From positions 1-23,155 of the IMG/VR virus record IMGVR_UViG_3300042561_000170: a stretch of DNA of 23,155 nt; one strand, written 5' to 3'. The notes below the pieces were generated by a model. It saw only the letters and a program-made list of their open reading frames with translations. It made no database searches and was not told the origin of the DNA. Both the position numbers and the translations under genes were made by a program. The stretch's first letter is position 1; every line of letters starts with the position of its first letter. This document shows, in pieces, positions 1 through 2,733 of the stretch. Source of the stretch: a virus.

Positions 1-63
1 CGTGCGCATCATCGTGCGCGCCGTGTCGGCGCCCACGTTCACAATCTCTACCCGTGCTTCCAT
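1..63 (-). CDS. 5' end of a leftward gene, product unknown (partial)
   Basis: An ATG at 63-61 on the minus strand opens a frame that stays open for 21 codons to the window edge, beginning MEARVEIVNVGADTARTMMR. An AAGGAG ribosome binding site lies at 76-71 with a 7-base spacer, which is the best reason to believe the start. The gene is divergent from the whole rightward structural operon, so it probably belongs to a different (early or regulatory) transcription unit. Too little is visible to name a family. Confidence 0.55.
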   Translation of the reverse strand, partial: MEARVEIVNVGADTARTMMRT

Positions 64-254
64 CTCTCTACTCCTTGCGCACCGCCCATCGGCGCGACAG
101 AGACAGTGTCGGCGACTTTCCTTACGCGAAACTTACAACCGCCGTCAGGATCGGTAGGGGCTTTCCCTAACCCGAGCCCGTCAGCGTGTACCCCTCGGCG
201 TTCTCCTATGGTGACCCCTGCGCGGTGTTGGGTGTACCCCTGCGGCAGACCCAT
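48..254 (-). CDS. Possible small leftward ORF, 68 aa, unknown
   Basis: A leftward frame of 68 codons (begins MGLPQGYTQH, ends GVERWKHG) starts at 254 with a GAGG motif about 5 bases upstream. It overlaps the start of the next leftward gene by 16 bases, a spacing common in phage operons. Against it, the protein is a featureless Gly/Arg/Val-rich string with one cysteine and no recognisable domain. It also carries two TGTACCCC sequences (187-194 and 233-240, + strand) that look like part of the repeat family of this intergenic region. It may equally be non-coding regulatory DNA. Confidence 0.25.
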   Translation of the reverse strand: MGLPQGYTQHRAGVTIGERRGVHADGLGLGKAPTDPDGGCKFRVRKVADTVSVAPMGGAQGVERWKHG

Positions 255-333
255 GCGCCCCTCTGGATGCCACTAATACCCCCCAGAATAGGAGATAAGT
301 TAGCAAAGGTCGCGGGGGTTGAGCTAAATAAAA

Positions 334-455
334 GGGGAGGGGTATGAGGGGTATCGAGGGGTATCGAGGGGTATTGGCCGGGGGGTATGCCCCGATGCCC
401 CTAATACCCCTGACCATCGCGGGCCGACGAAAGGATGCTCATACCCCTAATACCC
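334..455. repeat. Phased GGGGTAT heptamers plus inverted copies; G-quadruplex-like
   Basis: GGGGTAT occurs at 339-345, 348-354, 358-364, 368-374 and 382-388, so the first four copies are 9-10 bases apart, about one helical turn. Inverted copies (ATACCCC or ATACCC) follow at 404-410, 441-447 and 450-455, and another lies further left near 276-282. Runs of four or more G occur at 334-337, 339-342, 348-351, 358-361, 368-371 and 380-385, with loops of 1-8 bases, which satisfies a four-tetrad G-quadruplex pattern. GGGGTATT at 368-375 can pair perfectly with AATACCCC at 403-410. The block could be operator or iteron DNA, or a structured RNA or DNA element. Confidence 0.7.
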
Positions 456-664: not shown

Positions 665-1174
665 ATGCGGAGCCCCCGCACGGAATTTTTTTTGCACTAC
701 ACTTCGTGGATGTTCCGCGATCTTCCAGTCCGCGCCCGCGAGCTAAAGGCCACGCCCGAAATGCTGGAGCGCATATACGATGCCGCTCGCTTAGGTTTGC
801 GTGGAGAATCTCTTGCACTGGCGGCAGGTATATTGCCGGCTGAATTGGCGCGCCTGAAGATAATGGACCCGATAGCCGAGGTAGCGGAAATGAAAGGCCG
901 CGCCGACAGTGAGATGGAAATGTCCCGCGTGGTATTTGATGCTGCGCAGGCTGGGGATAGTAAAGCGGCGCTGGAGTTTCTGAAACACCGCCACGATTGG
1001 GTTGCCACCCAGAAAGTCGAGGTGCAGGGCTCGGCGCAGATTAGTATTACGGTTGCGCTAGAGGAGGCGCAGAAGCGCGTGGAGCGTATTGCTGCGGAGG
1101 ATGTGGTGGATATTGCGCCACGGTCGGCTGCGGTATTACCGCTGGCGCGGGAGCCGCTGGGGGAAGCGATATGA
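665..1174 (+). CDS. terS: Terminase small subunit (putative)
   Basis: This is the DNA-recognition subunit of the packaging motor, assigned mainly from its position directly before the large terminase and from its architecture. The protein is 169 aa. Residues about 30-75 are helical and resemble a helix-turn-helix (LGLRGESLALAAGILPAEL), residues 75-115 form a further helical segment resembling the oligomerisation region of small terminases, and the Ala/Arg-rich C-terminus could contact the large subunit. The start is uncertain. ATG 665 has GGAGG at 645-649, a long 15-base spacer. ATG 710 (154 aa) keeps the whole conserved-looking region and avoids the T8 hairpin, but has only a weak ribosome site. 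The stop is 24 bases before the next start. Confidence 0.7.
   Translation: MRSPRTEFFLHYTSWMFRDLPVRARELKATPEMLERIYDAARLGLRGESLALAAGILPAELARLKIMDPIAEVAEMKGRADSEMEMSRVVFDAAQAGDSKAALEFLKHRHDWVATQKVEVQGSAQISITVALEEAQKRVERIAAEDVVDIAPRSAAVLPLAREPLGEAI
666..693 (+). terminator. Hairpin plus T8 run at the small-terminase start
   Basis: TGCGG (666-670) pairs with CCGCA (676-680) around the loop AGCCC, and a run of eight T follows at 686-693 after five bases. The short stem and spacer make it a weak intrinsic-terminator candidate. No rightward gene precedes it, so if it works it would stop leader transcription before the packaging genes unless transcription is antiterminated. It overlaps the first codons if the small terminase starts at 665, which is a reason to consider the later start at 710. 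Confidence 0.3.
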
Positions 1175-1197: not shown

Positions 1198-2733
1198 ATG
1201 CAGTCCATAAAATACACACCGGCCGAAGAACAGGTGCTGATGACCCGCATGTGGTCGCCTGCGCTGCGGGACGACCCCGAGGCGTGGGTGATGTTTGTGT
1301 TTCCCTGGGGGCAGGCGGGCACGCCGCTGGCCAAGCGCACGGGGCCGCGCCGCTGGCAGCGCGATGTGCTGCGGCAGATCCGGGATCACGTGAAGGCGAA
1401 CGGCACACGCGATTTGTTTGAGGTGATGCGCCTGGCGGTGGCGTCGGGGCGCGGAATCGGGAAGTCGGCGCTGGTGAGTTGGCTGGTGCTCTGGATGCTA
1501 AGCACGCGGATCGGCGCGAGCGTAATCGTCTCGGCGAACAGCGAATCGCAGTTGCGCAGCGTGACTTGGGCCGAGGTGACGAAGTGGCTGGCGATGCTGA
1601 TTCACTCACACTGGTGGGAAATCAGTGCAACGCGGATCGTGCCGGCGAAGTGGCTGACGGACCTGGTGGAGCGTGATCTGAAGAAGGGCACGCGGTACTG
1701 GGGCGCGGAGGGGAAGCTCTGGAGTGAGGAGAACCCGGACGGGTACGCTGGGCCTCACAACGACGACGGCATGATGGTGGTGTTCGACGAGGCGTCTGGC
1801 ATCCCGGATGCGATCTGGTCGGTGGCTGCGGGGTTTTTCACGGAAAACACGCCGCACCGGTTCTGGCTGGCGTTCTCGAACCCGCGGCGGAACACGGGGT
1901 ATTTCTTCGAGTGCTTCCACGCCAAGCGAGCTTTCTGGCAGAACCTGCAGGTAGATGCCAGGGCTGTGGAGGACACGGACAAGGGCGTCTACGAAGCGAT
2001 CATCGCGGAATACGGCGAGGACTCACGCGAGGCTAGGGTCGAGGTGTACGGGCAGTTTCCGTCGTCGGGGGCGGACCAGTTCATTGCGCCAGCGCTGGTG
2101 GACGAGGCGGTGTCGCGCCCGCCGTGGAAGGATCCCGACGCGCCGATTGTGCTGGGCGTGGATCCGGCCCGGGGTGGCGCGGATTCGACGGTGATTGCCG
2201 TGCGCCGTGGGCGTGACCTGGTGGCGCTGCACAGGTATCAGGGCGATGACACGATGACGGTAGTGGGGCACGTCATTGAAGCGATTGAGCGGTACGAGCC
2301 GGCGATGACGGTGATTGACGAGGGCGGTCTTGGGTATGGAGTGCTGGACCGATTGAAAGAGCAGCGGTATGCTGTGAGAGGTGTAAACTTCGGGTGGAAA
2401 TCAAGCCGTCCCGTGATGTGGGGGAACAAGCGCGCAGAGATGTGGGGCGCGATGCGCGAGTGGCTGAAAACCGCGAGCATCCCTGTGGACAAGGCTCTGA
2501 AGGCAGACCTGACGGGTCCGAAGACCAAGCCTGACAGCAGCGGAACGGTGTTTCTGGAGTCGAAGAAGGACATGAGATCACGCGGCCTGGCATCGCCTGA
2601 CGCAGCAGACGCGATCGCGGTGACGTTTGCGTTCCCGGTTGCGTCGCGCTTGGATAGTGGCCAGTCGTCGCGCGGAGTGTCTGTGTACGCGGTTCCGACC
2701 GTGAATTTCTGGGGGTCGTCATGCCGCGTATGA
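1198..2733 (+). CDS. terL: Terminase large subunit
   Basis: This is the ATPase-nuclease that pumps DNA into the prohead and cuts it. The 511-aa protein is close to P22 gp2 (499 aa). The N-terminal ATPase has a Walker A at residues 83-90 (SGRGIGKS) and a Walker B at 192-200 (MMVVFDEAS, with D197/E198). The C-terminal RNase H-like nuclease shows acidic residues at D322 (GVDPARGGADST), D374 (TVIDEGG) and the D468/D471 cluster (SPDAADAIA). The motifs appear intact. No strong ribosome site precedes ATG 1198, so translation may be coupled to the small subunit. Its stop overlaps the portal start by 13 bases. Confidence 0.96.
   Translation: MQSIKYTPAEEQVLMTRMWSPALRDDPEAWVMFVFPWGQAGTPLAKRTGPRRWQRDVLRQIRDHVKANGTRDLFEVMRLAVASGRGIGKSALVSWLVLWMLSTRIGASVIVSANSESQLRSVTWAEVTKWLAMLIHSHWWEISATRIVPAKWLTDLVERDLKKGTRYWGAEGKLWSEENPDGYAGPHNDDGMMVVFDEASGIPDAIWSVAAGFFTENTPHRFWLAFSNPRRNTGYFFECFHAKRAFWQNLQVDARAVEDTDKGVYEAIIAEYGEDSREARVEVYGQFPSSGADQFIAPALVDEAVSRPPWKDPDAPIVLGVDPARGGADSTVIAVRRGRDLVALHRYQGDDTMTVVGHVIEAIERYEPAMTVIDEGGLGYGVLDRLKEQRYAVRGVNFGWKSSRPVMWGNKRAEMWGAMREWLKTASIPVDKALKADLTGPKTKPDSSGTVFLESKKDMRSRGLASPDAADAIAVTFAFPVASRLDSGQSSRGVSVYAVPTVNFWGSSCRV

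Follow-up and report, generated by a model that had tools for sequence, protein, structure and literature searches.

The GGGGTAT array upstream of terS in the window (the whole stretch of DNA analysed here, a complete virus record of 23,155 bases that is a linear fragment) very probably represents the iterons of the single replication origin of a podovirus of approximately 36-39 kb, bound by the C-terminal domain of its initiator-helicase, VapE. In the loci compared here, the repeat word covaries with a single VapE segment of about 17 residues, in which residues 738 and 743 dominate.

Layout of the array in the window

The window carries the late half of a podovirus genome, namely terS, terL, the portal and major head protein genes, and later genes, and the array lies upstream of terS in a divergent intergenic region of about 600 bp (63-664). 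An earlier note on this DNA had called the region gene-free, and no gene was found between the start of the minus-strand gene (62) and terS. The note had also reported six runs of four to six G with loops of 1-8 bases, and the coordinates bear this out: GGGG at 334, 339, 348, 358, and 368 and GGGGGG at 380, with loops of 1, 5, 6, 6, and 8 bases between them. Its repeat of GGGGTAT every 9-10 bases held for four of the five direct copies, as the AGGGGTAT copies start at 338, 347, 357, and 367 (steps of 9, 10, and 10); the fifth, GGGGTA at 382, lies 14 bases beyond the fourth. The full array, at 189-448, is larger than the densest part that had been described. Over the whole contig, GGGGTA/TACCCC occurs 17 times, as compared to a mean of 3.6 and a maximum of 9 in 100 dinucleotide shuffles, and 11 of these copies, on both strands, fall in 189-634. 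The array is ordered as three minus-strand copies, an AT-richer core, five plus-strand copies, and two minus-strand copies. A hairpin had been proposed in which 368-375 folds onto 403-410; the pairing is present, and it arises merely from the inverted word copy ATACCCC at 404-410. The left-block and inverted copies listed below were placed by word count and the alignment of relatives, and the plus-strand copies by the sequence itself as well.

1-62, minus strand: start of a left-arm gene (MEARVEIVNVGADTARTMMR...), read from the sequence; runs off the contig end, with a homologous reading frame in the related locus L005
185-485, no strand: whole array cassette, a block replaced by arrays of other words in L004, L005, and L006, with both flanks aligning
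189-195, minus strand: iteron copy AGGGGTA, left block
235-241, minus strand: iteron copy AGGGGTA, left block
276-282, minus strand: iteron copy GGGGTAT, left block (GGGGTA counted from 277)
283-333, no strand: AT-richer core, candidate unwinding element (43% GC versus 62% for the contig)
338-345, plus strand: iteron copy AGGGGTAT
347-354, plus strand: iteron copy AGGGGTAT
357-364, plus strand: iteron copy AGGGGTAT
367-374, plus strand: iteron copy AGGGGTAT
382-388, plus strand: iteron copy GGGGTAT
404-411, minus strand: inverted iteron copy AGGGGTAT, the hairpin arm of the earlier note
441-448, minus strand: inverted iteron copy AGGGGTAT
665-1174, plus strand: terS (start possibly 709)
1198-2733, plus strand: terL, terminase large subunit

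Repeated ATCAGTGTGCTGATGAT / GATCAGTGTGCTGACGA units, partly palindromic, were seen at 540-625 of the window and also in L004, L005, L006, and L096; they lie outside the swapped cassette and are kept between phages of different words. A second conserved element occupies the interval between the array and terS, just upstream of terS, at 600-705 of the window and in L036, L035, and L054. Its G/C-rich part contains GGGCC/GGGGG blocks and leads into a T-rich run, and the element may serve as a packaging site (cos/pac) or as a late promoter/terminator.

Conservation of spacing and exchange of words among relatives

A search of related phages for tandem GGGGTAT, a check that the earlier note had suggested, returned 28 viral loci, 13 of which have the layout of the window with a closely similar 46-42-62-9-10-10-14 spacing. 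When ten near relatives were aligned, the match to the window was 0.90 at site columns versus 0.73 elsewhere, and the array of L092 has exactly one additional 10-bp unit. The earlier note had named loss of the G-runs or phasing in related phages as evidence against a function; because the site columns are conserved above the linkers in near relatives, a functional array is favoured. Words and phasing are kept in these near relatives and the spacing is kept farther out, but the G-runs are not kept in distant relatives.

The closest loci by terminase, L004 and L005 (TerL 99% identical to that of the window), carry the word TTGCCAC, and L006 carries GTCCCC; L005 aligns with the window at 1-184 and from 486 onward, but not inside the array. 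Other relatives carry ATGGGTCA, TGTGGACA, TAGTCAT, TGGGGTA, TTGGCAATA, TGTAGGCAAT, TTAGTCAT, TGTGGACAA, and more. The words of L005 and L006 are also written GTGGCAA and GGGGACA; TGTAGGCAAT is the word of L055, and L105 has AGGGGTAT. In farther relatives the slot, the spacing of about 9-10 bp, and the AT-rich core are all kept, whereas the word differs. In the family, a word of 6-8 bp is repeated about 10-25 times per array, both as tandem copies about 9-10 bp apart and in inverted blocks, around an AT-rich core and between divergent replication and packaging arms.

These properties were measured in 96 non-redundant loci. Neighbouring sites on the same strand are most often 9 bp apart (n = 326; 8 bp, 119; 10 bp, 64; 11 bp, 76). 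The AT-rich core has a mean minimum 50-bp GC of 0.23 versus 0.47 for the region, and is weaker in the window (0.43 versus 0.62). Site orientation differs across the core at 0.42, as compared to 0.20 by chance and a null maximum of 0.24. The array was the sole cluster of its own word in the twelve genomes and fragments tested, that is, one array per genome; G009 seemed to have another cluster, at the opposite end of its linear contig, which was interpreted as the one array continued across the contig ends. Across these loci, what is conserved is the grammar of spaced binding sites and not the G-runs. The motif finder was simple and misread some arrays, and ten loci (L022, L260, L027, and others), in which simple repeats or motifs of low score had led it astray, were removed before the statistics; the loci are in part metagenome contigs, among which chimeras are possible.

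Several other features were seen beside the arrays. The AT core of L015, L020, L026, L027, L040, L043, and L047 holds a near-invariant palindrome around CTGTATATATATACAG, whatever the word. Simple tandem repeats adjoin the arrays of L022 (4500-4620, GGTCGGC x18) and L037 (near -180, GGCAGGC). L103 (record G025) is a 95,467-base contig, much longer than the family phage with a GGGGTAT array inside it, and is possibly a chimera or an integrated copy.

Search for the protein that reads the word

The left-arm genes are widely shared among relatives and encode an SNF2 helicase, a RecB-type exonuclease, an SSB, a family B polymerase, and a primase-helicase annotated "virulence-associated E", here called VapE. 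The VapE gene is found to the left of the array, its stop codon some 2-6 kb away with other genes between, and the window contig lacks VapE. In the nearest relatives of the window, VapE consists of TOPRIM and DUF5906 (PHROG label primase/helicase). DSL-LC05 and G020 have another primase type, and arrays are nonetheless present.

Several candidate readers were rejected. The DNA-binding region of TerS is near-identical in the window, L004, and L005 despite their different words, as is TerL at 99% identity. DnaA domain IV is encoded in only 1 of 28 records (MW202483), and among the small genes of the VapE-array interval, no family tracks the word. VapE itself was at first rejected, as the proteins of L037 and L043 are 95-99% identical and their words differ; it was reinstated because other near-identical pairs differ at residues 738-772 and L037 is the only clear exception. 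In the L054/L055 and L105/L006 pairs, the near-identical VapE proteins have their differences grouped near the C-end. Between L105 and L005, the N-halves are shared at 88-98%, and identity falls abruptly to about 45% in the C-halves, as if swapped, at about residue 345.

The VapE N-halves of the L105/L005 and L054/L085 groups are of two dissimilar types (a TOPRIM primase and another, about 18-22% identical), and they are joined to homologous C-halves. The stand-alone DnaA domain IV protein of MW202483 (L085, 31423-31719; PF08299, 64 bits) accompanies an array of the word TGTTTACA. A small gene in the VapE-array interval of L054 (4773-5366, minus strand), also seen in L037 and L043, matches DNA polymerase processivity factor and RusA-labelled families in PHROGs, and its product looks like a short sliding clamp.

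Covariation of the word with a VapE segment

VapE scans gathered the 96 non-redundant loci, each of which provided both an array word and the C-half of VapE, and residues were numbered on the L105 VapE, counted from the first codon after a stop. In a sliding-window test that controlled for the rest of VapE, a single sharp peak was found at residues 730-746 (partial r 0.435). None of 500 permutations reached it (maximum 0.069), in a comparison from which permuting does not fully remove shared ancestry. Outside the peak, the flank up to about residue 767 scored 0.13-0.25 and the remainder at most about 0.10. Among the 82 loci with TerL, the partial correlation was 0.552 for the segment given TerL and 0.182 for TerL given the segment, and the rest of VapE, given the segment of about 17 residues, retained 0.034. 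For pairs with at least 88% identity elsewhere in VapE, the word is the same in 93% of cases when this segment (a predicted wing, hereafter the wing) is 85% identical or more, and in 1% when its identity is 50-70%.

The rule was then applied to 75 loci fetched afterwards, with L037 excluded from the reference as a suspected hybrid. The wing neighbour (at least 85% identity) predicted the word in 86%, as compared to 67% for the rest-of-VapE neighbour; below 75% wing identity, neither neighbour predicts the word. This result depends on the view that L037 is a hybrid, because ties land on L037 when it is retained in the reference and the advantage at 90% identity or above then vanishes. L037 is the one clear exception to the rule: it has the wing of the CTACCCCAC group (L043-type, shared with 26 other phages) and an array of TGACCCAT. 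It joins L043-like and L036-like sequence within a segment common to both at 95%, and is likely a recombinant or a chimeric assembly, that is, a hybrid contig.

Among single columns, residue 738 (0.48) and residue 743 (0.42) came first, followed by 744, 761, and 740. Residue triplets and words pair up consistently for the most part, as in these entries (wing residues, then word):

M at 738: TAGTCAT
K/D: TGTGGACA
A/M/N: TGGCAATA
D/R/T: TTCGGCA
K/A/Q or K/P/Q: AGGGGTAT, the word of the window

One locus, from a metagenome bin of Rhodoferax, fits the rule with a K/D/S wing and a TGTGGACAAT array, even though the remainder of its VapE is only 64% identical. Among deeply diverged VapE proteins, similar wings seldom share a word, so the code would depend on the background. 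Because the gene is absent from the contig, the VapE type of the window's phage was taken from its nearest VapE-bearing relatives (L105, L097, L096, L106, L094, and L092), all of which have the K[VI]K..(L/I).QK[KR]H wing. Collectively, this covariation supports cognate specificity between the C-terminal domain of the initiator and the repeat word.

Predicted structure of the VapE C-terminal part

AlphaFold2 models of the C-half had a mean pLDDT of 83.9 (85.3 for the last 117 residues). In these models, the covarying segment forms a beta-hairpin in the C-terminal domain, and residues 738 and 743 lie on its two strands near the turn. The predicted order of helix-strand-helix-helix-strand-strand is that of a winged helix, and the domain is likely one. 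The closest solved fold to the C-half is the NrS-1 primase-polymerase (6k9c, 6k9e, 6lrb; Foldseek E 1.4e-18; VIA Z 25.3 over 357 residues), which is also the one relative of solved structure that sequence comparison clearly detected; the SaPI5 primase-helicase (7ola/7om0) matches with a VIA Z of 17.7 over 355-360 residues. On its own, the small C-terminal domain gave weak and generic matches, the best being TFIIIC with a VIA Z of 5.8, below the trusted level.

Discussion

The array and its predicted reader resemble several known systems. P4 alpha combines a TOPRIM primase, an SF3 helicase, and a C-terminal winged-helix domain. Its winged helix binds origin repeats (PMC4234260). In the phages closest to the window, VapE likewise combines TOPRIM with a DUF5906/SF3-type helicase, and its C-terminal domain is predicted to be winged-helix-like; no sequence match of VapE to P4 alpha was reported here. 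The C-terminal domains of SaPI Rep and SCCmec Cch2 bind short iterons (PMC7581432). These replicons (Rep and ori of SaPI5 and SaPIbov1; Cch2) likewise use an initiator of the primase/helicase kind that recognizes several short repeats through its C-terminal domain; however, the SaPI origin lies directly downstream of rep, whereas the array here is 2-6 kb from VapE and beside terS, in a podovirus of about 38 kb that encodes a family B polymerase and an SSB of its own, and sequence identity is about 12%. The NrS-1 primase-polymerase, from a deep-sea phage, resembles VapE in fold over the helicase-and-tail half, but it has a prim-pol N-half, and the phage genome holds two 8-nt recognition sites rather than an array (PMC7102993). 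In the PLE satellites of Vibrio cholerae, the DNA-binding part of the initiator and the iterons of the RepA/ori modules covary and swap as modules, as here, and cognate specificity is proven (PMC8263062); the PLE initiator is unrelated (RepA_N), with three iterons of about 30 bp and few specificities, in contrast to dozens of words here.

By analogy with the C-terminal domains of SaPI Rep and SCCmec Cch2 and with P4 alpha, the array is most likely an origin. It is unlikely that the same VapE domain binds it chiefly as a regulator, repressing or switching the divergent early and packaging promoters while replication starts elsewhere. The array does sit between divergent units, promoter-like TATA-rich palindromes occur in the AT core of several relatives, and GC skew, uninformative here as an origin marker, has its minima away from the array and makes no turn there. 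However, the covarying reader is a primase-helicase, each genome has a single array and no dispersed operators, and iterons with an AT core match known initiator-helicase origins. The array may also regulate the packaging operon; a primase-helicase as reader points instead to replication. Much less probable still is an array of TerS binding sites for cosB-like packaging recognition. Such sites would suit a position directly upstream of terS, where lambda-type cos sites have theirs, but the near-identical terminase proteins of the window, L004, and L005 coexist with different words, the word has little remaining relation to TerL after the wing is accounted for (partial 0.18), and the separate conserved G-rich element nearer to terS is a better packaging candidate.

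That a G-quadruplex or a structured leader RNA is the functional feature appears extremely improbable, even though the window and its near relatives carry the six runs of four to six G. Only 18 of the 96 arrays contain a four-G quadruplex motif, so the four-tetrad motif is not conserved in the family, and the words that occupy the slot in most relatives are incapable of forming a quadruplex; what is kept is the spacing and the covariation of word and protein. Since the slot holds different words in relatives while the spacing and AT-rich core persist, the G-runs, the quadruplex, and the hairpin are incidental. Thus, neither the polymerase-blocking fold nor the leader RNA offered by the earlier note is supported, the hairpin being an inverted copy of the word, whereas its option of operator or iteron DNA gains support from helically phased, conserved sites in two orientations that covary with a putative DNA-binding segment of the phage initiator. 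A host or phage DnaA-like protein is a hardly credible reader of these sites: some words, for example TTGTCCACA, equal DnaA boxes, L075-type words resemble them, and MW202483 does encode a stand-alone DnaA domain IV, yet that domain occurs in only one of the 28 records, most words differ from DnaA boxes, and the word tracks the VapE wing.

As a replication origin, the array would work as follows. The predicted wing hairpin of the VapE C-terminal domain would contact the word, VapE would assemble on the two blocks with its helicase assemblies facing the AT core, the AT-rich core would melt, and the helicase would load and replication be primed, as in P4 alpha or SaPI Rep. The phage of the window would encode its own VapE beyond the fragment, with the wing type of its relatives. 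We infer wing contact, melting, and origin use by analogy.

Covariation of initiator and origin, with module swapping, has already been demonstrated in PLE satellites, in which an origin-directed nuclease drives change of the origin word (PMC8263062). The novelty here appears to lie in the phage clade concerned, in how wide its range of words is, and in the tracing of specificity to two residues and a predicted wing hairpin; in the literature searched, we found no report of the array or the code. We tentatively suggest, as a possibility somewhat short of even, that this freshwater podovirus clade rapidly re-spells its origin, with two to three wing residues setting one word of dozens in a natural recognition code that would act via the wing and not the recognition helix, and that the change is probably under selection from origin-targeting rivals or for incompatibility with co-infecting relatives. 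This raises the question of what drives word change in origins. Initiator-helicase origins are usually known from one or a few examples each, and about 170 natural initiator-word pairs here place specificity in a short hairpin and nominate two residues. The recognition code of the VapE initiator family would thereby become directly testable, and the origin words of uncultured phages may be predictable from close initiator sequences.
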